NCBI GenBank assembly: GCA_030430725.1
Contig: JAUIKP010000040.1
Coordinates: forward strand, 1 to 12,522
Reading direction: 5' to 3'
DNA length: 12,522 nucleotides
Origin: Nitrospiria bacterium
GTDB taxonomy: Bacteria; Nitrospirota; Nitrospiria; Nitrospirales; UBA8639
Shown: piece by piece, positions 1,463 through 12,431 of the stretch
How the letters are laid out: each line of letters starts with the position of its first letter
How positions within the stretch are numbered: position 1 is the first letter of the stretch
Notes under the pieces: generated by a model
What the model saw: only the letters and a program-made list of their open reading frames with translations
Database searches by the model: none
Told to the model about the DNA's origin: nothing
Program-made: the position numbers and the translations under genes

Positions 1463-3926
1463 ATCTGAACCTAAACCTGCCAAAAGAAAAAAAGGACTGA
1501 CCAAAAAACTGGTTCTGTCCATGCTGTTGGTCGGTGCCCTCCCTTTGATCATTGGACTCCTGTTGGCTTTCTACCAGGGCACACAGGAAATTCGCGAGGT
1601 CAATGGTTCTAGCTTTGAAGCTCTCGCAACAGAAACGGCCAGAAAGCTTGATCTCGTCATGGCCGATGAACTTGCTCGCACGGCCTTACTGACAACCAAT
1701 ATCAAGATCATTAAAAAACTGGAACACACCCGCGACGCCCTCAGTGAGTTGACTCCACAGGAACTGGCTCTCACTCTACAACACGAACAAGAAGCCTGGA
1801 AGGCCAAGGATCCCGACATCCTTCAAAGAATTCTGGAAGGACCCTTTGCCGAGATCCTACAACAACATATGGGGGGAACCTTTATTGACCCGGGCCATCC
1901 CATTCCGGTGATTACCCGATCTGCTACACGTGGCTTATTTATTACCGATCATGCAGGACGGGTCGTGGCCAGTCTGGATTCCGACATTCCCTACCTTCAC
2001 CGGGAGGAAGTATGGTGGAAAGGTGCATTCCATAATGGCGTCGGTCAACCGTATATAGGCGAGATAGCGTTTGATTCACTACGGGGAGTCTATACGTTTA
2101 CTCTCGCGCTACCAATCATGGATAGCTTGCGGTATGAAGCCATCGGCGTCCTTCATCGGATTTATGACGCCAAGGAATTCTTTGCCCCCTCCATCGATAT
2201 TATTCGATTTGGCAAAACCGGTCATGTCATGCTCATTGACAGCCGTGGCGTCGTCCTGAGCTGCCCGATCCTTCCCACCGGCACCTCCATTAGTGACACA
2301 CGCCTTATTCCCCTCGTCACACCCCTGCATGCCGGATGGACTCCAGCTCCAAGCGATGGGCATGGGGGCACTGCAGCTTCCATCATTGGATTCTCCCCCC
2401 TGAGCAATACCAATCAGATTACCGAATCCTCTACCGGCCAGACCTGGCATATGTTTGTCTGGCAGTCATCTGGGGAGGTCTTTGCCCCCATAGAGCATTT
2501 TTTTAAATGGACAGCCGCTTTCGGATTACTCGGAGTGTCACTGCTCGTCACATTGGGCTATATCGCAGCCAATCGAATTGCCGCACCCATTCGTCGTCTT
2601 CAGGAGGCTGCCCGGCAAATCGGCAGAGGAGAATATCGAGAGCCCATTATCTTGTCCACTGGAGACGAGATTGAGGAATTGGCCGATGAGGTCAATCGCA
2701 TGAACCAACAACTGGCTTCACAGTTCGCCGGGCTGGAAAGCCAAGTTGAGTTGAAAACCCAGGAAGTGAAATACCTTGAGGAGTCCACCATAAAAATTCT
2801 GGATAATGTGCCCGACCCGGTCCTCATGATTGGTCCAGACGAACACATCGAATATTTGAATAAGGCCTCAAAAGAAGCCTTCGCCGCCACTAACGGCGAG
2901 ATCATCGGCACCCCACTGTTTCAAATTTTCTCCTTGGACCCTGCGACACAAGACCGCCTTAAACAAGAAATGCATGCGGTCCAGGTTATGGAACCTACAT
3001 CTTCAGACAATACGAAGACCAATCCATCCAAAACCTCGTTGCAGGATCCTCTGATTCCCACGAATTGGGCCCATTCAGGCGCCAATCGCCAGGAAATTCG
3101 TATTAATCAGCGAACGTTCCGGTACCGTTGGTTTGGTGTTCAGTCCCGACCAGGAAGGGGGCCAAGTGCCGGATTGGTATTACGAGATACGACGGAGGAA
3201 AGTATTCTGCAAGACCGAGTCATCCAAGGGGAAAAACTTGCAAGTTTGGGCGTTCTCAGTGCCGGAATTGGACATGAACTCAATAACCCTTTAGTCGGAG
3301 TCATTGGATTAGGTGAAGCGATACAAGAGGAGACCAACCCTGAGCAAATCAAAGAATATGCAAAGGGCATTGTCCAACATGGAAAACGTATGGCTTCCGT
3401 CGTCCGAGACTTTACCGGTCAATCCGGAGAAAAATTGACTGAAGGCCAAACGCTCATTAACCTCAATGAACTGTTAGAGCAATCTCTGGCTACCGTTACG
3501 GAACTCTTCCCATCAGTCCCAGTAGAAATCCAGACTCACCTGGGGCCTATTCCGCTCATTCAGGGAAAAGCCTTGGAACTCGGGCAGGTCTTTACCAACA
3601 TCATCACCAATGCGTTTCAAGCAATGAAAGAAGGTGGAAAACTTGATATTTCAACGGAAACGTCGGGACATGATTTGGAAATCCGCATTAACGACACGGG
3701 GCCCGGCATCGCCCCGGCGCATCTGCCCAGAGTCTTTGATCCATTTTTTACAACTAGGGGGCAGGGAGAAGGATCTGGCTTGGGCCTCACCGTGGCCTAT
3801 CGAATTATTAATAAATTAGGCGGACATATTCGAATGGAAAGTGAAGAGAGCCAGGGGACGACCTGCGTGATTACCTTCCCTGTCTCGAATGCCCAGCTGG
3901 CCAAGGAAAGGAGTTCGACATCATGA
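1455..3926 (+). CDS. Transmembrane sensor histidine kinase (dCache-HAMP-PAS-HisKA-HATPase)
   Basis: Start GTG 1455 is preferred: AAGGTG lies 5 nt upstream and the resulting N terminus is a short Lys/Arg-rich tail leading straight into the first membrane helix. The frame stays open upstream to 1161, but that stretch lies inside the previous gene. The protein is 823 aa. TM1 is at about 19-39. Residues 41-348 form a long periplasmic region that looks like double Cache (LFITDHAGRVVASLD and HVMLIDSRGVVLS are its typical strands). TM2 is at about 350-372, HAMP at 372-425, a coiled linker, then PAS from about 443. HisKA has H607 in GIGHELNNP, and HATPase_c has N719, D747 (DTGPG) and GSGLGL. It should sense a small periplasmic ligand and phosphorylate an unlinked or upstream receiver. 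The HisKA segment is strikingly like that of the preceding kinase, implying duplication of the core. Its stop overlaps the next start (ATGA). Confidence 0.92.
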   Translation: MDKSEPKPAKRKKGLTKKLVLSMLLVGALPLIIGLLLAFYQGTQEIREVNGSSFEALATETARKLDLVMADELARTALLTTNIKIIKKLEHTRDALSELTPQELALTLQHEQEAWKAKDPDILQRILEGPFAEILQQHMGGTFIDPGHPIPVITRSATRGLFITDHAGRVVASLDSDIPYLHREEVWWKGAFHNGVGQPYIGEIAFDSLRGVYTFTLALPIMDSLRYEAIGVLHRIYDAKEFFAPSIDIIRFGKTGHVMLIDSRGVVLSCPILPTGTSISDTRLIPLVTPLHAGWTPAPSDGHGGTAASIIGFSPLSNTNQITESSTGQTWHMFVWQSSGEVFAPIEHFFKWTAAFGLLGVSLLVTLGYIAANRIAAPIRRLQEAARQIGRGEYREPIILSTGDEIEELADEVNRMNQQLASQFAGLESQVELKTQEVKYLEESTIKILDNVPDPVLMIGPDEHIEYLNKASKEAFAATNGEIIGTPLFQIFSLDPATQDRLKQEMHAVQVMEPTSSDNTKTNPSKTSLQDPLIPTNWAHSGANRQEIRINQRTFRYRWFGVQSRPGRGPSAGLVLRDTTEESILQDRVIQGEKLASLGVLSAGIGHELNNPLVGVIGLGEAIQEETNPEQIKEYAKGIVQHGKRMASVVRDFTGQSGEKLTEGQTLINLNELLEQSLATVTELFPSVPVEIQTHLGPIPLIQGKALELGQVFTNIITNAFQAMKEGGKLDISTETSGHDLEIRINDTGPGIAPAHLPRVFDPFFTTRGQGEGSGLGLTVAYRIINKLGGHIRMESEESQGTTCVITFPVSNAQLAKERSSTS

Positions 3927-4525
3927 CAAACGTACAAAAGAGCAGGAACGGCTTGTCTATGGCATTTCTGGCCATTCTCTTCATTGGAATAGGCTTTTCT
4001 TCATCTCTTCAAGCAAGTGATTCCAACGCCATGAAAAATCTATCACCGGAGAAAGTGGCAGATTTCATTCATTCCATCGTTGAGGCGGACCGCCACGTCT
4101 ACACGACGCATATCGTAAAGAGAATGCAGGACCAAGGCGTGGTGGTGGCACGAGAAGATTGGGAAAACAAAAACGCCATTCCCCTTCCAGCACAGTTTCT
4201 CCATATTTCCAGCAAATTGGTTGCGGAATCAGGACACGGCATTCGATTCCGTTTAATTAGTCTGTGGCCAATCTATCGAAGAAATGGACCTGCAACGGAC
4301 TTCGAACGAAAAGGTCTGGAACAACTTTCGCTCAACCCAGATACGCCTCGACGTGGAATTGTTTCCACGGGGAAAAAGCGCTTATTTCAGGCTATTTATG
4401 CCGACAAAGCGATTAACGATACCTGCACGACGTGCCATAATGCTCACCCCTTAAGCCCCAAGCGTGACTTCAGAAAAGGCGACGTCATGGGAGCCATTGT
4501 CATTACCATACCCCTGGAGGACTAA
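3923..4525 (+). CDS. Exported Tll0287-like (DUF3365) c-type haem protein, probable redox or gas sensor partner
   Basis: The protein is 200 aa. A signal peptide (hydrophobic 13-28, likely cleavage after SLQA at residue 31) places it in the periplasm. One haem-c site CTTCH is present (C168, C171, H172). The segment around VYTTHIVKRMQDQGV and the later IPLPAQFLH are typical of the Tll0287-like/DUF3365 fold, a PAS-like haem domain found free or as the input part of histidine kinases. In the cyanobacterial Tll0287 structure, as I recall, the distal haem ligand is a Cys; here the two haem Cys are the only cysteines, so any distal ligand must be another residue. The start overlaps the kinase stop by 4 nt, a sign of translational coupling. 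I infer that it works with the membrane kinase as a separate haem sensor subunit. A general electron carrier is the alternative. Confidence 0.85.
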   Translation: MTNVQKSRNGLSMAFLAILFIGIGFSSSLQASDSNAMKNLSPEKVADFIHSIVEADRHVYTTHIVKRMQDQGVVVAREDWENKNAIPLPAQFLHISSKLVAESGHGIRFRLISLWPIYRRNGPATDFERKGLEQLSLNPDTPRRGIVSTGKKRLFQAIYADKAINDTCTTCHNAHPLSPKRDFRKGDVMGAIVITIPLED

Positions 4526-6321: not shown

Positions 6322-6960
6322 TTAATCTTTTTCTTGTTTCACTTTTTCGACGGTCTTTTCTTTGATCACTTCAATTTCAAGAATGATTTCGACCTCATCA
6401 CCCACGAGCATTCCACCACTATCTAATAATTTGCTGAATTTCATGCCGAAATCCTTTCGGTTCAGCGTGCCGCCGGCAGTGAAGCCAGCCCGTGTATTGC
6501 CCCAAGGATCCTGAGCGACCCCATTAAACGTCCCGACCAATGTGATCTCTTTGGTGACGCCCAACAAAGTCAAATCTCCGACGGCGGTGTAGTCGTCTCC
6601 GGTTTTCTTGTAACTTTTCATGGTATAGGTCATAGTCGGAAACTTTTGAACGTCAAAAAAGTCCGGGCTTCGTAAATGCTCATCCCGTTTTTGATGATCC
6701 GTCGTAACCGAGGAGGTCTGGATGACCGCTTCAATGGTTTTGAATTCCTTCTCCTCTGCGTCCATCTCCACGATTCCTGAATATTCGGTAAACTTGCCAT
6801 TCGTTTTGGACACCACCATATGGGCAACTTGAAATCCAACCCTGGAATGATCATGGTCCAGTTTCCATTTTGCCATTTCTGCAATCGAAGCGGTAACAAA
6901 CCCAAAACCAACGATCAGAACTGTTCCAATACCAAAACACACTTTCGAAACCTTCCGCAT
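6322..6960 (-). CDS. YceI-family periplasmic lipocalin-like protein
   Basis: Start ATG at 6960 is set by AGGAGGT (6967-6973) 6 nt upstream; the frame is open further upstream but that part is leader. The protein is 212 aa, with a signal peptide (hydrophobic 9-24, cleavage likely after TASIA at 27) and mature N terminus EMAKWKLDHDHSRVGFQVAH, the hallmark opening of YceI. Further family motifs are DEHLRSPDFFDVQKFP, VGDLTLLGVTKEI and NRKDFGM. YceI proteins are beta-barrels that bind long isoprenoid-like lipids in the periplasm; the physiological role is unsettled. The C terminus is rich in Lys and Glu (IKEKTVEKVKQEKD), a charged tail beyond the barrel. It lies 107 nt after the CxxC protein gene on the same strand, with a hairpin in the spacer. 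Convergent with the peptidase. Confidence 0.92.
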   Translation of the reverse strand: MRKVSKVCFGIGTVLIVGFGFVTASIAEMAKWKLDHDHSRVGFQVAHMVVSKTNGKFTEYSGIVEMDAEEKEFKTIEAVIQTSSVTTDHQKRDEHLRSPDFFDVQKFPTMTYTMKSYKKTGDDYTAVGDLTLLGVTKEITLVGTFNGVAQDPWGNTRAGFTAGGTLNRKDFGMKFSKLLDSGGMLVGDEVEIILEIEVIKEKTVEKVKQEKD

Positions 6961-6982
6961 CACATAACCTCCTGTGCAATTT

Positions 6983-7008
6983 GAAGCCATACTGGTTGTA
7001 TGGTCTTC
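6983..7008 (-). repeat. Leader hairpin upstream of the YceI ribosome binding site
   Basis: On the - strand GAAG-A-CCATAC, loop AACCA, GTATGG-CTTC forms a 10-bp stem with one bulged base (arms at 6983-6992 and 6998-7008 in + coordinates). It sits about 9 nt upstream of the AGGAGGT of the YceI gene, in the spacer after the CxxC gene. It is followed by no U-run, so termination is unlikely. It could be an operator dyad, or an intercistronic hairpin protecting or separating the two messages. Confidence 0.45.
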
Positions 7009-7067
7009 GTTCATGAAACCAACAGGACATGACCTAGGAATCATCCATCCTATGCTTCGAGAATGAT

Positions 7068-7724
7068 TTATACGACCCACGAACTGTCCTTGCCGGAAGC
7101 TGGACCATCCAGCCATTCGTCAATGAGTGAAACCATCACCCCCGTAGGTTGATACCCCTGCGTCAATCTGATGTGGTCATTACCATTTTGCCCAAGCAGC
7201 GCTGGGAAACCACTCACACCCAATTGGCGGGCCCGATCAAACTCCTGCCAGACCGATTGTTTCATCCCAGAATCATAAAACCATTCCAAAAACCTGCCTT
7301 GATCAATACCCTGAGTACCGGCAAGATTCGCCAAAATCTCTGGGTGCGTGACATCTTTGTTTTTTACGTAAAATGCTTCCTGCACAGTATTCAAAAACAC
7401 AAATTCCTTATCCGGAGCCAATTGCCGAATCACCATCATCGCTCGTGATGGCGGTTCGGTGTCATACATGAACGAAGGGTCCGGATTAAAATTAAAGTTA
7501 AATGGCTGACCCGTTCGTTCATGGACCGCATGCCAATGGTTGAGAATGTAGGCACGCCGTCTCTCATCAAACCGTTCAGTATTGCCGGGGCGCAAACCAC
7601 CCAACAATACCTTGATCGGGACACGATCGCAATATCGCCGAACGATTTCGTCAATGACTGGTGAAAACCCCCAGCACCACGAACACATGGGATCAACCAC
7701 ATAGATAAGCGATTTCACCATCAT
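7068..7724 (-). CDS. DsbA/FrnE-like thioredoxin-fold protein with CSWC active site, cytoplasmic
   Basis: The protein is 218 aa from ATG 7724, which has GGTGG 5 nt upstream. GTG 7733 (AGGGAG 4 nt upstream) and ATG 7721 are alternatives. The N terminus reads LIYVVDPMCSWCWGF, a thioredoxin-fold first strand with redox pair C14-x-x-C17 and no signal peptide. A helical insert follows (about 45-150), and the cis-Pro loop is VSGFPALL (P174). This matches the DsbA-family subgroup of COG3531 type, relatives of FrnE, which act as cytoplasmic disulfide oxidoreductases or isomerases. The 2-hydroxychromene-2-carboxylate isomerase branch of this fold is less likely because both active-site Cys are kept. 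It is first of a - strand pair with YceI and divergent from the sigma-54 activator. The substrate is not deducible. Confidence 0.82.
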   Translation of the reverse strand: MMVKSLIYVVDPMCSWCWGFSPVIDEIVRRYCDRVPIKVLLGGLRPGNTERFDERRRAYILNHWHAVHERTGQPFNFNFNPDPSFMYDTEPPSRAMMVIRQLAPDKEFVFLNTVQEAFYVKNKDVTHPEILANLAGTQGIDQGRFLEWFYDSGMKQSVWQEFDRARQLGVSGFPALLGQNGNDHIRLTQGYQPTGVMVSLIDEWLDGPASGKDSSWVV

Positions 7725-8032
7725 GTCTACCACCTGGCTCCCTCGGTGACCTGCCCGAACATACCCAACCGATTATTGCCCAACAAATGAAATCAAAATA
7801 CTTTACCACAACGGCTTTATGTAACTTATCAATTTTCTCTCAAGGTTTCTTGTAGATTTCATGTAGCTTCGTGTGTTTCTGAAGAACCGCCTGGCAACTC
7901 CCTCCCCTTAGGAACCTAATGGAATGCGCTACCATAGTCTGTGAAATTGCAGCATCCTCGAACCAATAACCGCCCAATCTTTACACTCCTCAAACCAATG
8001 GATCATAATAAGGTTCTTAATTGGGAGACGCT
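7725..8032. other. Divergent intergenic region between CxxC protein and sigma-54 activator
   Basis: About 300 nt without a gene, which must hold promoters for both directions. I see no convincing sigma-70 or sigma-54 box. Two short items are visible. One is a direct repeat TGTAGaTTTC / TGTAGcTTC at 7851 and 7862, spaced 11 bp (one helical turn). The other is CTGTGAAA at 7939-7946, a 7/8 match to the half-site TTRYGAAA found upstream of the OsmC gene; its right half is poor. Either may be chance. Confidence 0.4.
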
Positions 8033-9970
8033 ATGCTGGGATCCCATCACGATCCGTCAACGAACCTCAACGAAGAGACTGCACTCCGAACTATCCTGGA
8101 GGGCACGGCCACTGTTACAGGGGAACGATTCTTTGAAGCCCTGGTGGAAAACCTGGCCAAAGCCTTACATACCCATGCCGCCTGGGTCACGGAATATTTT
8201 CCTGATTCCCGACGAATGAAAGCCCTAGCGTTTTATTTAGAGGGCACCTTCCTCAAAAATTGGGAAATGGATATTGCCGGGACCCCGTGCGAGCACGTTA
8301 TCGAGCAAGTCCGACTCATTCATTTCCCAGACAACTTATTAAATCTCTTTCCCATTGATCCCGATATCGTCGGCATGAAGGCAGCCAGCTATATGGGTCT
8401 CCCACTGGTCGATTCGATCGGAAATATCCTTGGGCATCTGGCGGTCATGGATACCAGACCCATGCCGGCGGAACCGCGGGTGCAGACGATTGTTCGAATT
8501 TTTGCATCAAGGGCGAGTGCCGAACTCCAGCGCATCCACGCAGAATCCGCGACACGTGAACGTGAACAAAAGTTGCGGCGATTTGTGGACAGTGCCATGG
8601 ATGCGATTATTGAATTAGATGAAGATCTTGGAGTAACCCGAATCAATCCGGCTGCCGAAAAGGTATTCAAATGTAAAGCCACTCATTTGTTTGGTAAGAA
8701 TTTTTCCCACTCTCTTTCCCAAAAAGACTCCGAGAAATTACGACTTCTTATCCAAGATCTCAACGCGAAACCGGCAGGCCAGCGATCCCTCTGGGTTTCT
8801 GGTGGATTCACGGCCCTCCGCGCAGACGGTTCGGAATTTCCCGCAGAAGCCACTCTTTCCCAATTTCACATGGATGGAAAGATCTATTACAGCCTGATTC
8901 TTCGTAATGTGAATGAACGCCTGGAAGCGGAACAAAAAATTCGATCCCTCACGATTGAAAAAGAATTTCTCAAAGAAGAATTACATGAGCTCCAACACTT
9001 TGGGGAAATTTTGGGGAATAGTCCCGCCTTGGGGCACGTCCTCCGGGATATCCAACAGGTCGCCGATACCGAAGCCACTGTGCTCATTTCAGGCGAAACC
9101 GGGACCGGCAAAGAGGTGATGGCCCGCGCCATTCATGCCAACAGCCGGCGTCGGAATCACCCATTCATCAAAGTGAACTGCGCCGCAATTCCTGCGACCT
9201 TAATCGAAAGTGAATTTTTTGGACATGAACAGGGTGCGTTTACCGGCGCCACGAAAAAGCGGGAAGGACGGTTTTCATTGGCCGACGGAGGGACCATTTT
9301 TCTAGATGAAATCGGCGAACTACCTTTGGATCTTCAAGGGAAACTGTTACGCATTCTTCAGGAAGGGGAATTCGATCCGGTCGGCAGTTCCCACACCAAA
9401 AAGGTAAATGTCCGTGTCCTGGCGGCCACAAATCGTGATTTACAGAAGGAGGTCCAAGATGGAAAATTTCGTGAAGATCTTTTTTATCGATTAAATGTCT
9501 TTCCCATCCATCTTCCGCCTTTGCGTGAACGCGGAGAAGATGTGGTCCTCCTGGCCAACACATTTGTTCAGCATTTTGCTCAACGAGTGGGTCGGACGGT
9601 GACCCCCCTTTCCCCTGACGCACTCGGACGACTCACGGCGTACCATTGGCCGGGAAATGTACGGGAATTGCAAAACGTGATCGAGCGGGCGGTCATTACG
9701 GCCCAAAACAGTCAATTAAATCTTGACCGTGCCCTCCCAGAGGCTAAAGGGACCCCTTCTTCGACTCATGAAAGCGTCAAACAGGAGTCTCCCACTTGCA
9801 TTCGAACCATTCAGGAAATTCAAAATTTTGAGCGTCAAAACATTCTACTGGCCCTTGAACAACGCGGGTGGAAAGTATCAGGTGAACAGGGAGCTGCCAA
9901 ACTTCTTGGCATGAACTCTTCAACCCTTGCATCTCGTATGAAAACTTTGGGCATTACTCGCACGAAATAA
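8033..9970 (+). CDS. Sigma-54-dependent transcriptional activator (GAF-PAS-AAA+-Fis HTH, FhlA-like)
   Basis: ATG 8033 has GGGAG 5 nt upstream; TTG 8021 in frame is an alternative. The protein is 645 aa. Residues about 18-168 are a GAF domain (motifs [25 protein letters not shown]), about 180-300 a PAS domain ([26 protein letters not shown]), then a short coiled linker. About 325-560 is the AAA+ core, with Walker A GETGTGKE (from G354), sigma-54 contact loop GAFTGA (401-406), Walker B IFLDE (D425, E426) and later arginine-bearing [10 protein letters not shown]. The C-terminal Fis-type helix-turn-helix spans about 609-640 ([21 protein letters not shown]). All parts needed to remodel sigma-54 RNA polymerase are intact. 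There is no receiver domain, so activity is controlled by ligands at GAF or PAS rather than phosphorylation. The best local target is the sigma-54 promoter at 10177, right after this gene. Confidence 0.95.
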
Positions 9971-10053
9971 TTCCTGCACGATTTCTACCCATATTTTTTC
10001 ATTTTTTTCCGATTCCCTTTCAGCATTTCTTCATTTCCAGGATTCTATTCAGT

Positions 10054-10109
10054 TTGCGAACTTTCGTAAATTCGAATTATGAAATTTCACAATTCGGCAA
10101 ATTTCGTGA
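10054..10109 (+). promoter_or_regulatory. Cluster of dyad sites, candidate upstream activating sequence (enhancer)
   Basis: Three 16-bp elements align on the pattern TTRYGAAA-TTTCRYAA. Site 1 (10054-10069) is TTGCGAACTTTCGTAA, site 2 (10077-10092) is TTATGAAATTTCACAA, and site 3 (10094-10109) is a weaker TCGGCAAATTTCGTGA. Right halves are TTTC[GA][TC][AG]A in all three. Site 2 is the core of a 24-bp near-palindrome (10073-10096) with outer arms CGAATT and AATTCG and one mismatched pair. The centres lie about 141, 118 and 101 bp before the predicted start at about 10203, the usual range for enhancer-binding proteins of sigma-54. Binding by the activator encoded just upstream is inferred. Confidence 0.65.
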
Positions 10110-10176
10110 GCGAATATCCCACCACCTGTTATTGCAAGACATTGTTTTTATTTATTTTTATTAAGACTTTTCAGCT

Positions 10177-10192
10177 TGGCACATCCCCTGCA
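10177..10192 (+). promoter_or_regulatory. Sigma-54 (RpoN) -24/-12 promoter of the OsmC gene
   Basis: The sequence TGGCACATCCCCTGCA matches the sigma-54 consensus TGGCACG-N4-TTGCA at 14 of the 16 positions if the N4 is counted as free. The invariant GG (10178-10179) and GC (10190-10191) are separated by exactly 10 nt. The predicted start is about 12 nt after the GC, near 10203. It lies downstream of the activator gene and its candidate enhancer dyads and upstream of the OsmC gene, with a leader of roughly 185 nt. Confidence 0.8.
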
Positions 10193-10389
10193 CAATAAAT
10201 TTGGCATGGAAGACAGCATATATCAAATCAGGTTCTCAAGGTGAAGGTAGGAACAAAATGACGAGTCAGGATGCGCGAAATTCACACTCTCAGAGGCCAG
10301 CTGAAAAGGGGAACCTTCAGGATATGTGCCGTCAGGCGGATCAACTTTTTTTTCACATGCTGTTTCACACTCAACCAGGAGGATGTGCC

Positions 10390-10959
10390 ATGTCATCAGT
10401 CGCCACACCATCAACTATCAATGGGGTCAACGTCGAACAATTAGGTACCAATATCCATGCCATTCAGGGCGAACCCGGTTTGGCCAAATTTCAGTTCCGG
10501 GCCACCAACTCCTGGGTCAATGGGGGGCACAATCGCACAACAATCAAGGAATTTTACGGAGTGGGCAAAGAAGATACGACCCGAACTGAGCCATTTGTCC
10601 TGGATGCCGATGAACCGCCGGTCTTGTTAGGACAGGACCAGGGAGCCAATCCGGTGGAGTTTGTGTTGCATGCCCTGGCGGCCTGCCTGACCACATCGAT
10701 GGTCTATCATGCGGCCGCTCAGGGCATCAAAATCGACTCTGTAGAATCTAGGTTGGAGGGAGACTTAGATCTTCATGGGTTTCTAGGGCTGTCTCAAGAC
10801 GTTCGACCAGGCTATCAAAATCTCCGGGTTCATTTCACCGTGAAAAGTGACGCCCCAGCCGAGACTCTTAGAAAATTGACGAAGTATTCACCGGTTTTCG
10901 ATATTGTATCGAATCCCGTACCGGTGGCAATATCGGTGAAGACGGACAGAACCAACTGA
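10390..10959 (+). CDS. OsmC/Ohr-family protein, single-cysteine type
   Basis: ATG 10390 is chosen because AGGAGG (10377-10382) lies 7 nt upstream. The same frame is open back to 10201, with an alternative ATG 10258 preceded by AGGTAGGA, which would add 44 residues of unfamiliar sequence. From 10390 the protein is 189 aa. The OsmC fold is shown by NPVEFVLHALAACLTTSMVYHAAAQGI (helix bearing C99, the peroxidatic position) and the C-terminal VKSDAPAETLRKLTKYSPVFDIVSNPVPV. The second, resolving Cys of classic OsmC/Ohr is replaced in SPVFDIV, and C99 is the only cysteine. Classic members reduce organic hydroperoxides with lipoyl or other thiols; this branch is less well characterised and may need an external thiol. 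Control by the sigma-54 promoter at 10177 is strongly suggested by position. No signal peptide, so cytoplasmic. Confidence 0.88.
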   Translation: MSSVATPSTINGVNVEQLGTNIHAIQGEPGLAKFQFRATNSWVNGGHNRTTIKEFYGVGKEDTTRTEPFVLDADEPPVLLGQDQGANPVEFVLHALAACLTTSMVYHAAAQGIKIDSVESRLEGDLDLHGFLGLSQDVRPGYQNLRVHFTVKSDAPAETLRKLTKYSPVFDIVSNPVPVAISVKTDRTN

Positions 10960-11032: not shown

Positions 11033-11625
11033 ATGCTCAAAATTGTATAGTGTTTTTTCTCTGGCACCCTGTGTTACTTATCTTTCCTAGCCATCTTTTT
11101 GTATGCCGTAAGATCTCTGGGATACTTTAGCGTCTCCAATACCATTGATGGCTAACCCTAGATTATAGTCCGGCAGGCTCTGGCCATCAATGTACCAGCT
11201 ACTGCTGTTTGATGCCTGGCAACCCATAAAGGCGAGACTTGGCACATTCAAGCCCCATTCGGTCAGGGCTTACTGGATGGAAGCAGATTGGGGATGGTTT
11301 TCATGGCCACATTCCTCCTCAAATCACGTTGATTTGTTCGGAATACGGCAGGTCTGGCTCTATTTACGAAACCAGGCGTACACACCTTTACCGCTCAAGA
11401 TCCCTGTCCTGCAGAACCAGGTACGGCATCCTCTATATGCGGGTGGCGTTTGCCTTCTGGGCCACCCCAACAATGACGATTGCCCATCTGGTCTTTGCGG
11501 TGACAGGAACCACCTAGATTCTGATAGCCATTCAATGAGAAGAAAAGGATTTGGTGGCTTTCCATGGATAAGCGTGTAACGACTATCAAAAAGGAGTACC
11601 CAAACGTATTCCCCGCTTTTTCTGG
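11033..11625 (+). pseudogene. Decayed methanethiol S-methyltransferase-like (MddA/NnrU family) gene
   Basis: Pieces of one membrane methyltransferase appear in order but in three frames. Frame A (from ATG 11033) gives CYLSFLAIFLYAV, TIDG and QALAINV, broken by stops at 11048, 11153, 11159 and 11210. A segment from about 11240 reads WHIQAPFGQGLL and MATFLL. It then shifts near 11310 to NHVDLFGIRQVWLYLRN, YTPLPLKIP and VRHPLYAG, the last being the RHP signature of NnrU/isoprenylcysteine methyltransferase relatives. It shifts again near 11430 to AFWATPTMTIAHLVFAVTGTT, then stop 11515, ILIAIQ, stop 11536, EEKDLVAFHG, stop 11569, and a YQKGVPKRIPRF tail. An intact MddA is about 250-270 aa, so the relic also lacks some 50-70 internal residues. 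Live members make dimethyl sulfide from methanethiol. Assignment is from remembered family motifs. Confidence 0.78.
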
Positions 11626-12003: not shown

Positions 12004-12330
12004 TCAGTCCTCCCAAAACACTGCAAGCCAGATCGTGTCTTGTTGGGGGTCGGTCCATTCCACACGATGCCTGGTATGGGGTGAAAGATAAAGAGAATCT
12101 CCTGGACCAAAAATCAATTCAGATTGTCCCTCAATTTTGAGTGAGGCTTTTCCTGCTAGTACCACAACGTATTCATGCTCTGCCTGGTCATACCAAAATT
12201 CGGGTGGAGAGGCCTGGCCCCGTGACACTATCCGCTCAATCCGCACAAAGCGACTCCTCAATACCTCACTCGTCAATTCGTGATCAATGCGTTCAGGAAT
12301 ATCGGCGAAAAGATTTTGACATCGTTCCAT
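12004..12330 (-). CDS. Small cupin-domain protein
   Basis: ATG at 12330 has AGAGGTG (12337-12343) 6 nt upstream; GTG 12339 overlaps that site and is less likely. The protein is 108 aa, a single cupin barrel without signal peptide. The barrel motifs are PPEFWYDQAEHEYVVVLAG (motif 1), FGPGDSLYLSPHTRHRVEWT (motif 2, with PGD turn and H-x-x-H-R) and a closing TIWLAVFW strand. Motif 1 has E-H in place of the canonical HxH, so metal binding, if any, must use an altered ligand set built around that His/Glu and the His of motif 2. This subgroup of stand-alone cupins has no firmly known reaction that I can name. It is isolated on the - strand next to degraded DNA. Confidence 0.85.
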   Translation of the reverse strand: MERCQNLFADIPERIDHELTSEVLRSRFVRIERIVSRGQASPPEFWYDQAEHEYVVVLAGKASLKIEGQSELIFGPGDSLYLSPHTRHRVEWTDPQQDTIWLAVFWED

Positions 12331-12431
12331 TTCCTGCACCTCTTAACAATTCGTTTTTGTTATGAAGCTCACAGAAAGCTCCCGGCCATATGGCAGACTC
12401 TTAGACCTGGCTGATTGGCATATGGGCACTT

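Follow-up and report, generated by a model that had tools for sequence, protein, structure and literature searches.

A conserved unit of sigma-54 activator, tandem enhancer dyads and -24/-12 promoter before an OsmC-family gene in Nitrospirales and Bacteroidota

Genes of the Ohr/OsmC group are usually controlled by OhrR or stress regulators, and the locus treated here raises the question of whether an OsmC-family gene can instead be served by a sigma-54 switch of its own. It lies on contig JAUIKP010000040.1 of a Nitrospiria bacterium (GenBank assembly GCA_030430725.1, a draft genome that is 83% complete and has Nitrospira/Nitrospirales MAGs as its nearest named relatives); the window is the whole stretch of 12,522 nucleotides that was analysed. 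On the + strand the order is activator gene (8033-9970), three dyads in tandem, -24/-12 promoter and OsmC-family gene (end at 10959), and 419 bp separate the activator gene from the OsmC ATG at 10390. An earlier note, made from the letters alone, had taken these parts for a single cassette. Comparison with relatives bears this out: activator, enhancer dyads, promoter and OsmC-family gene form one unit that is kept in two phyla, and a dedicated, essentially single-operon sigma-54 switch is the reading preferred here, at a probability of about 0.85. The features concerned are listed below, with dyad positions counted from the promoter 18-mer.

8033..9970, + strand: sigma-54 enhancer-binding protein of 645 amino acids with an ATG start (intact open reading frame, Pfam, homologue alignment, structure model)
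Within it, by residue: GAF-like domain ~31-165; PAS 180-296; AAA+ 326-578; Fis/FhlA-type helix-turn-helix (HTH) 595-642
10054..10069, no strand assigned: dyad I, TTGCGAACTTTCGTAA, at -122 (dyad scan, relatives)
10077..10092, no strand assigned: dyad II, TTATGAAATTTCACAA, at -99 (dyad scan, relatives)
10094..10109, no strand assigned: dyad III, TCGGCAAATTTCGTGA, at -82 (dyad scan, relatives)
10176..10193, + strand: sigma-54 promoter TTGGCACATCCCCTGCAC, with GG at 10178-10179, N10, and GC at 10190-10191 (pattern scan, relatives)
10390..10959, + strand: OsmC-family protein of 189 amino acids with a single conserved Cys99 (Pfam, alignment)

The activator is complete and carries the Sigma54_activat AAA+ domain, Walker A, GAFTGA and HTH of a sigma-54 enhancer-binding protein. 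Pfam called Sigma54_activat at residues 326-493 (249 bits), the AAA lid, and PAS at 180-281; HTH_8 fell just under its cut-off in the window protein (19.7 vs 22) and above it in relatives. Across 38 aligned sequences, among them that of the window, the GAFTGA and Walker A residues showed little or no variation. A GAF-PAS input had also been proposed, and of this the PAS part stood in the window copy; GAF was uncalled by Pfam in the activators of the window and of locus L106, and was called only in relatives (P0101 and P0113, residues ~31-165, 31-39 bits). The structure model had a mean predicted local distance difference test (pLDDT) of 77.3. The best 50 matches of a fold search were all AAA+-bearing sigma-54 activators, so that this search carries no information about the GAF half; compared by sequence with the PDB, that half gave no convincing match. 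Ten genomes of the order each held 19-34 matches to the activator at an expectation value (E) of 1e-60.

The promoter is the sole GG-N10-GC site on either strand of the window that scores at least 11 of 13 informative positions, and it places the predicted 5' end of the transcript near 10203. In a chance test on 12.5 kb allowing up to one mismatch, one promoter was found against 0.53 expected and 80 of 200 shuffles held one; the pattern alone is therefore not significant in the window, and conservation among orthologues carries the claim of a near-consensus promoter. Downstream of the activator the dyads are present in three copies, all resembling TTRCGAAATTTCGYAA, and a reading with two dyads was rejected. 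Of 32 activator-linked loci scanned, 31 had 1-6 dyad matches scoring at least 11 (overlapping ones counted), against 0.07-0.69 in regions resampled by a first-order Markov model, a comparison that is partly circular because the consensus was drawn from those same loci. The dyads are better supported by their fixed phase and by co-occurrence.

Both were examined across the order, in which 146 genomes were searched; 37 had an OsmC match, and 29 close full-length loci (at least 64% identity, L022-L050) were retained, leaving outside them a fragmentary copy in genome G094 and paralogues of ~50% identity. All 29 loci keep dyads and TGGCA-N8-GC in a near-fixed phase of about -121/-99/-82, with exact GC at -12 throughout. 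The activator lies within the 1.5-kb flank at 26 of the 29, and a first scan found dyads and promoter in 25 of 26 activator-adjacent loci. L031, L037 and L050 were initially set down as exceptions, which was withdrawn once longer stretches showed dyads and promoter: L031 has dyads at -121 and -82 plus the promoter CTGGCATCGTTCATGCTC (9/13), and in L037 and L050 the activator lies upstream by 2.2 and 5.0 kb, respectively, and is immediately followed by dyads and promoter. At L048 dyads and promoter are present; its activator is on a separate contig, where it is in two pieces. The best match near dyad I fell at -120 to -123 in 23 of 25 loci, near dyad II at -97 to -100 in 23 and near dyad III at -80 to -83 in 22; unselected mean scores were 8.8 at -121 and 7.1 at both -99 and -82 (median 4.6). 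Phylum-wide, 33 of 295 Nitrospirota genomes gave a match at E 1e-40.

The same layout was met in Bacteroidota, first at L016-L018. Among 249 Flavobacteriaceae genomes, 54 had an OsmC match and 29 gave close loci (at least 70% identity), of which 28 have TGGCAY within 90 nucleotides of OsmC and dyads at -112/-90/-72; exact GC at -12 occurs in 23 of these 28 (23 of all 29). The highest mean dyad scores fall precisely on -90, -112 and -72 (12.3, 11.9 and 11.5 of 16; median 4.9). Dyad starts are spaced 22 + 18 bp here and about 22 + 17 bp in Nitrospirales, and between the two groups the array as a whole is displaced by about one helical turn. A further Bacteroidota locus outside Flavobacteriaceae, L110, carries three dyads at -122/-99/-82, the Nitrospirales phase, and its activator shares 55% identity with that of the window. 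In the phylum as a whole, 4 of 395 genomes gave a match at E 1e-40. Conservation of gene order and promoter at orthologous loci, which the earlier note had put forward as its check, was thus found in Nitrospirales and Bacteroidota alike.

Loci in which the activator has moved or gone are particularly informative. It is in the examined flank at 24 of the 29 Flavobacteriaceae loci; at L057, L079 and L080 it lies outside, and dyads and -24 element remain. For these three loci in turn (genomes G369, G206 and G387) an activator orthologue of 64-65% identity was located 86 kb, ~2.0 kb and ~1.8 kb away. In G158, where the locus begins near a contig edge, the orthologue is on another contig. L075, in G320, has neither dyads nor a -24 element, and that genome has no activator orthologue. 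The dyads thus follow the activator when it is moved and vanish with it, which speaks for their being its sites and not leftovers of gene order. This bears directly on the proposal that the dyads serve another regulator with a similar palindrome, for example Rex, while the activator acts elsewhere. The half-sites are indeed alike (the Rex palindrome is given in the abstract of PMC2883068 as TTGTGAAW4TTCACAA), but the lengths differ (16 vs 18 bp), the triple array keeps a constant phase to the sigma-54 promoter that follows it, and the dyads track the activator even when moved and are missing where it is missing. We consider that proposal very improbable.

OsmC relatives elsewhere served as controls. 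Ten of them with no activator in the stretch (L009, L011-L015, L019-L021, L051) had no GG-N10-GC above 9/13, and no dyad of score 12 or more within 500 bp except an AT-only match in L019. Phylum-wide searches of Bacteroidota and Nitrospirota added 13 loci, of which L110 has the module and L112 a divergent version; the others (L111, L113-L122) lacked both an activator match and any dyad scoring at least 12. L112, in G301, is a second, more distant OsmC with a divergent GAF-PAS activator and, between them, one dyad and TTGGAACAGGTTGTGCCA. Upstream of the OsmC relative a regulator of TetR-type appearance (judged by eye) lies on the same strand in L009 and L011 and is divergent in L021, with no sigma-54 site, and other OsmC lineages may use another switch. 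Among plasmid relatives (Bradyrhizobium, Leptospirillum, Rhodobacter) no sigma-54 activator was annotated beside OsmC in gene tables that are themselves incomplete. In G121, where the best activator match is just 42% identical, two dyads (-98 and -81) and the promoter survive at L086 next to what is left of osmC (two frames, E 8e-10).

Whether the unit is self-contained was approached by searching genomes for the dyad 16-mer (up to two mismatches) against a reversed control. Among the matches listed, the counts for 16-mer and control were 33 and 20 in G043, 24 and 20 in G053, 28 and 9 in G030, 22 and 14 in G066, 6 and 5 in G075, 4 and 4 in G073, 30 and 26 in G146, and 32 and 41 in G147. The excess in G030, and the lesser ones in G043 and G066, leave room for a few further targets. 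The combined dyad-plus-promoter pattern occurred at 16 places in 15 of the 146 genomes: eight at the osmC locus (including the fragmentary osmC of G094), one at an osmC remnant and seven with no activator or OsmC match in the surrounding stretch examined. The description as a self-contained regulon therefore holds in that no wider regulon is evident, and is qualified by the few further targets possible in the genus of the window.

Several observations weigh against a conserved, single-operon switch. No rpoN gene (PF04552) turned up in the assembly from which the window comes; 83% complete as stated, it is one of three genomes of the order in which rpoN was missing (present in 143 of 146). No OsmC match at all was obtained in 109 of the 146 genomes; the module is thus by no means universal. 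Promoters at L031, L037 and L050 score just 9-10/13, the -12 element is GT in place of GC in five of the 28 Flavobacteriaceae loci (L059, L061, L078, L079, L081), and L110 has GA there (GG-N10-GA). The per-dyad positions in Nitrospirales are each the best within a range of 9-10 bp, the unselected mean also reaches 7.4 at -90 and is less sharp than in Flavobacteriaceae, and just one or two dyads exceed the threshold in L034, L042 and L010. A distance of 1 to 5 kb separates promoter and OsmC in some genomes, and OsmC may then not be the sole or main target. With these points taken into account, the anatomy, phase, conservation and co-occurrence of the module stand as observed, and sigma-54 control by the adjoining activator is very likely.

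Binding by the activator, dependence on sigma-54 and activation itself we infer from what is known of the family. In the mechanism proposed, the Fis/FhlA-type HTH would bind the three tandem dyads, which start ~72-122 bp upstream of the -24/-12 promoter; on detection of a signal by the sensor half, the AAA+ ring would assemble on the dyads and remodel sigma-54 polymerase, turning on an operon that would comprise the single-cysteine OsmC-like protein and lineage-specific cargo: mddA (methanethiol S-methyltransferase), a membrane protein or an RND pump in Nitrospirales and PFOR in Flavobacteriaceae.

The closest plan among known systems is that of NorR-norVW, in which the activator likewise lies beside its target operon and three enhancer sites precede a sigma-54 promoter; in E. 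coli norR-norV three GT-N7-AC sites start 110, 89 and 65 bases before the sigma-54 18-mer CTGGCACGCAATCTGCAA. NorR, too, contains a GAF domain, in which His111 and Cys113 are iron ligands. These residues align with Ala and Tyr of the module activator, though the alignment is weak (hhalign probability 7%, E 0.005). NorR further differs in its site and HTH, the extra PAS belongs to the module activator, and norR is divergent from its target whereas the module genes are in tandem. The activator had been called FhlA-like, which fits its HTH (VxGxxGAAxxLGxxxxTLxSRMKxLGI, very similar to FhlA and matching it rather than NorR) within a shared class of sigma-54 activators, but not its sensor half, for which there was no convincing match. 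Scores against NCBIfam equivalog models fell below cut-off for NorR (386.9/476 bits), NifA (384.9/528.85) and FhlA (364.3/830), and by the cut-offs tested the protein belongs to neither the NorR nor the FhlA family. The module dyad scored below 12/16 in the hycA-hypA and hydN upstream regions of E. coli. Taken together, the NorR-like site plan and FhlA-type HTH suggest a system with the working scheme of NorR-norVW and a reading head of the FhlA type.

Sensor and reading halves appear to have diverged unequally. Between the window and L016, identity is 146/249 in AAA+ and 29/51 in the HTH, and 25/127 in the sensor part and 32/129 in PAS. The N-terminal sensor type also differs, being GAF in Nitrospirales relatives and cNMP_binding in L016, on which the Flavobacteriaceae domain scan was made and with which L017 and L018 align. 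On the reading preferred here, the half that binds DNA and carries AAA+ would be kept together with dyads and promoter, and sensor domain and cargo would be exchanged.

The OsmC protein matches PF02566 (58.9 vs 27.5 bits), and its ATG at 10390 is preceded by AGGAGG. Its closest solved relative is 2opl (Geobacter GSU2788), and the structure model is modest (mean pLDDT 65). The earlier note had called it a thiol peroxidase under peroxide or thiol stress, and the corresponding alternative, a working organic hydroperoxide peroxidase with the activator as peroxide sensor, draws on the OsmC fold family and on Cys99, at the peroxidatic-type position and invariant in 47/47 aligned OsmC sequences (near-duplicates included). 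What the protein lacks, unlike the Ohr/OsmC peroxiredoxins whose fold and first cysteine it shares, is the resolving cysteine: opposite GCPVS of E. coli OsmC stands YSPVF, with Ser in the resolving column of 46/47 sequences and Gly in the remaining one, which makes canonical two-Cys chemistry unlikely. The sole NCBIfam match, OsmC_like_Se, was below cut-off (64.9 vs 95). A peroxidase function of this OsmC is doubtful, peroxide as signal found no direct support, and the alternative as a whole is improbable.

Indications of another role for the proposed switch came from the genes beside OsmC, scanned in flanks of 1.5 kb, since the promoter often precedes further genes there (mddA, membrane protein, RND pump or PFOR). 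In the window this is a remnant:

11036..11613, + strand: decayed mddA remnant in several frames (tblastn with the MddA of L010)

The L010 MddA passes the NCBI equivalog NF045656 (348.5 vs 270 bits). After OsmC, mddA is decayed, partial or split in several members of the genus (the window, L006, L007, L008 and L025) and uninterrupted in L026, L027, L029, L010, L031, L036, L042, L046 and L048. A membrane protein with no Pfam or NCBIfam match was present at 14 of the 29 Nitrospirales loci, and in G083 the cargo is a membrane-fusion protein with an AcrB-type pump. According to the relevant parts of PMC12904073, MddA S-methylates cytotoxic hydrogen sulfide and methanethiol to dimethyl sulfide, and Mdd proteins of Actinomycetota are reported to ease oxidative stress. 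For these reasons sulfide/methanethiol or a related thiol-redox imbalance is favoured as trigger, with OsmC perhaps acting through Cys99 on thiol or persulfide adducts, a possible but speculative assignment. It rests on part of the family, which tells against it: mddA adjoins OsmC at 13 of 29 Nitrospirales loci (eight single uninterrupted matches and five broken or partial, the window included) and in none of the 29 Flavobacteriaceae stretches.

In Flavobacteriaceae, a PFOR match lies downstream of OsmC at 28 of 29 loci (1397 bits to TIGR02176 for the L016 copy). This, with the cNMP_binding domain of the L016 activator, suggests that the module could serve low oxygen or energy limitation and not thiol stress, the sensor reading redox or energy state and inducing PFOR and OsmC, with a similar adjustment in Nitrospira. 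The Nitrospirales stretches examined had no PFOR match, however; mddA and RND cargo suggest detoxification, and a LysR-type gene divergent from the L016 activator, with OxyR as best named match (207.5 vs 329, below cut-off), suggests oxidative stress. Low oxygen or energy limitation is rather unlikely.

No description of the module was found in the open-licence literature searched. Related statements, each from part of the source named, are as follows. OsmC, metallo-beta-lactamase and RND genes and a sigma-54-dependent regulator neighbour a urea transporter in soil Nitrospira, in a passage making no promoter claim (PMC12516955); in Bradyrhizobium, an OsmC-like gene is listed as preceded by a predicted RpoN site, TGGCACGCTCCATGC (PMC13207237); and nitric oxide lowers an OsmC-family gene in Desulfovibrio (PMC5701242). 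An FhlA gene is noted for each of the nine Nitrospira genomes tabulated in PMC5596200, and the known FhlA regulon for only some of them. The main text of a sigma-54 regulon survey (PMC12316311) contains neither OsmC nor Nitrospir-, and that of the MddA papers PMC5607357 and PMC12904073 does not mention OsmC.

The start of OsmC may lie further upstream, and one more feature was recorded:

10259..10389, + strand: putative in-frame N-terminal extension of OsmC from ATG 10259, motif CRxADxLxF...GGC (translations compared by eye)

The CRxADxLxF extension is common to both Nitrospirales families by eye, with an MNWExxCRNADRLxFRQ-like form in the other family (L033-L050). At L049 its start overlaps (ATGA) the stop of the upstream gene, which encodes a small membrane protein of the kind described (2139-2603, - strand). 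In nine loci of the window's family, the last 20 codons differ 58/36/95 times at codon positions 1/2/3, with 64 synonymous and 92 non-synonymous pairwise differences, a pattern that is suggestive only because the sequences are related. The region is likely translated or an alternative start region. A TTG start at 10201 was rejected, being located before the predicted transcript start near 10203 and hence unusable if transcription begins there.

Other genes of the window were noted in passing. YceI and DsbA-family genes (6322-7733, - strand) are divergent from the activator and both kept in L006 and L007; in L008 YceI alone was found. A small cupin protein is encoded at 12004-12339 (- strand; nif11_cupin model below cut-off, 92.8 vs 159.45 bits). 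A gene for a Tll0287-like protein (3923-4525) follows a histidine kinase gene, and its relative in L010 (7319-7894) is located after OsmC and mddA.

In its broadest form, the comparison tentatively points to an undescribed sigma-54 switch family in at least two phyla, with a fixed reading half and triple-dyad enhancer, exchangeable sensors (GAF-PAS or cyclic-nucleotide-binding) and detoxification cargo around a single-cysteine OsmC clade; its activator may be an orphan 'FhlA' regulator of Nitrospira, and the signal may be sulfide or methanethiol. For Nitrospira and Flavobacteriaceae the module offers a clean, testable unit of promoter, enhancer and activator, in which the regulatory half and its DNA sites stay paired while sensor and cargo change. 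The role of the one-cysteine OsmC clade becomes testable via inducers, and, if the sulfur reading is true, methanethiol and sulfide methylation would have a regulator.

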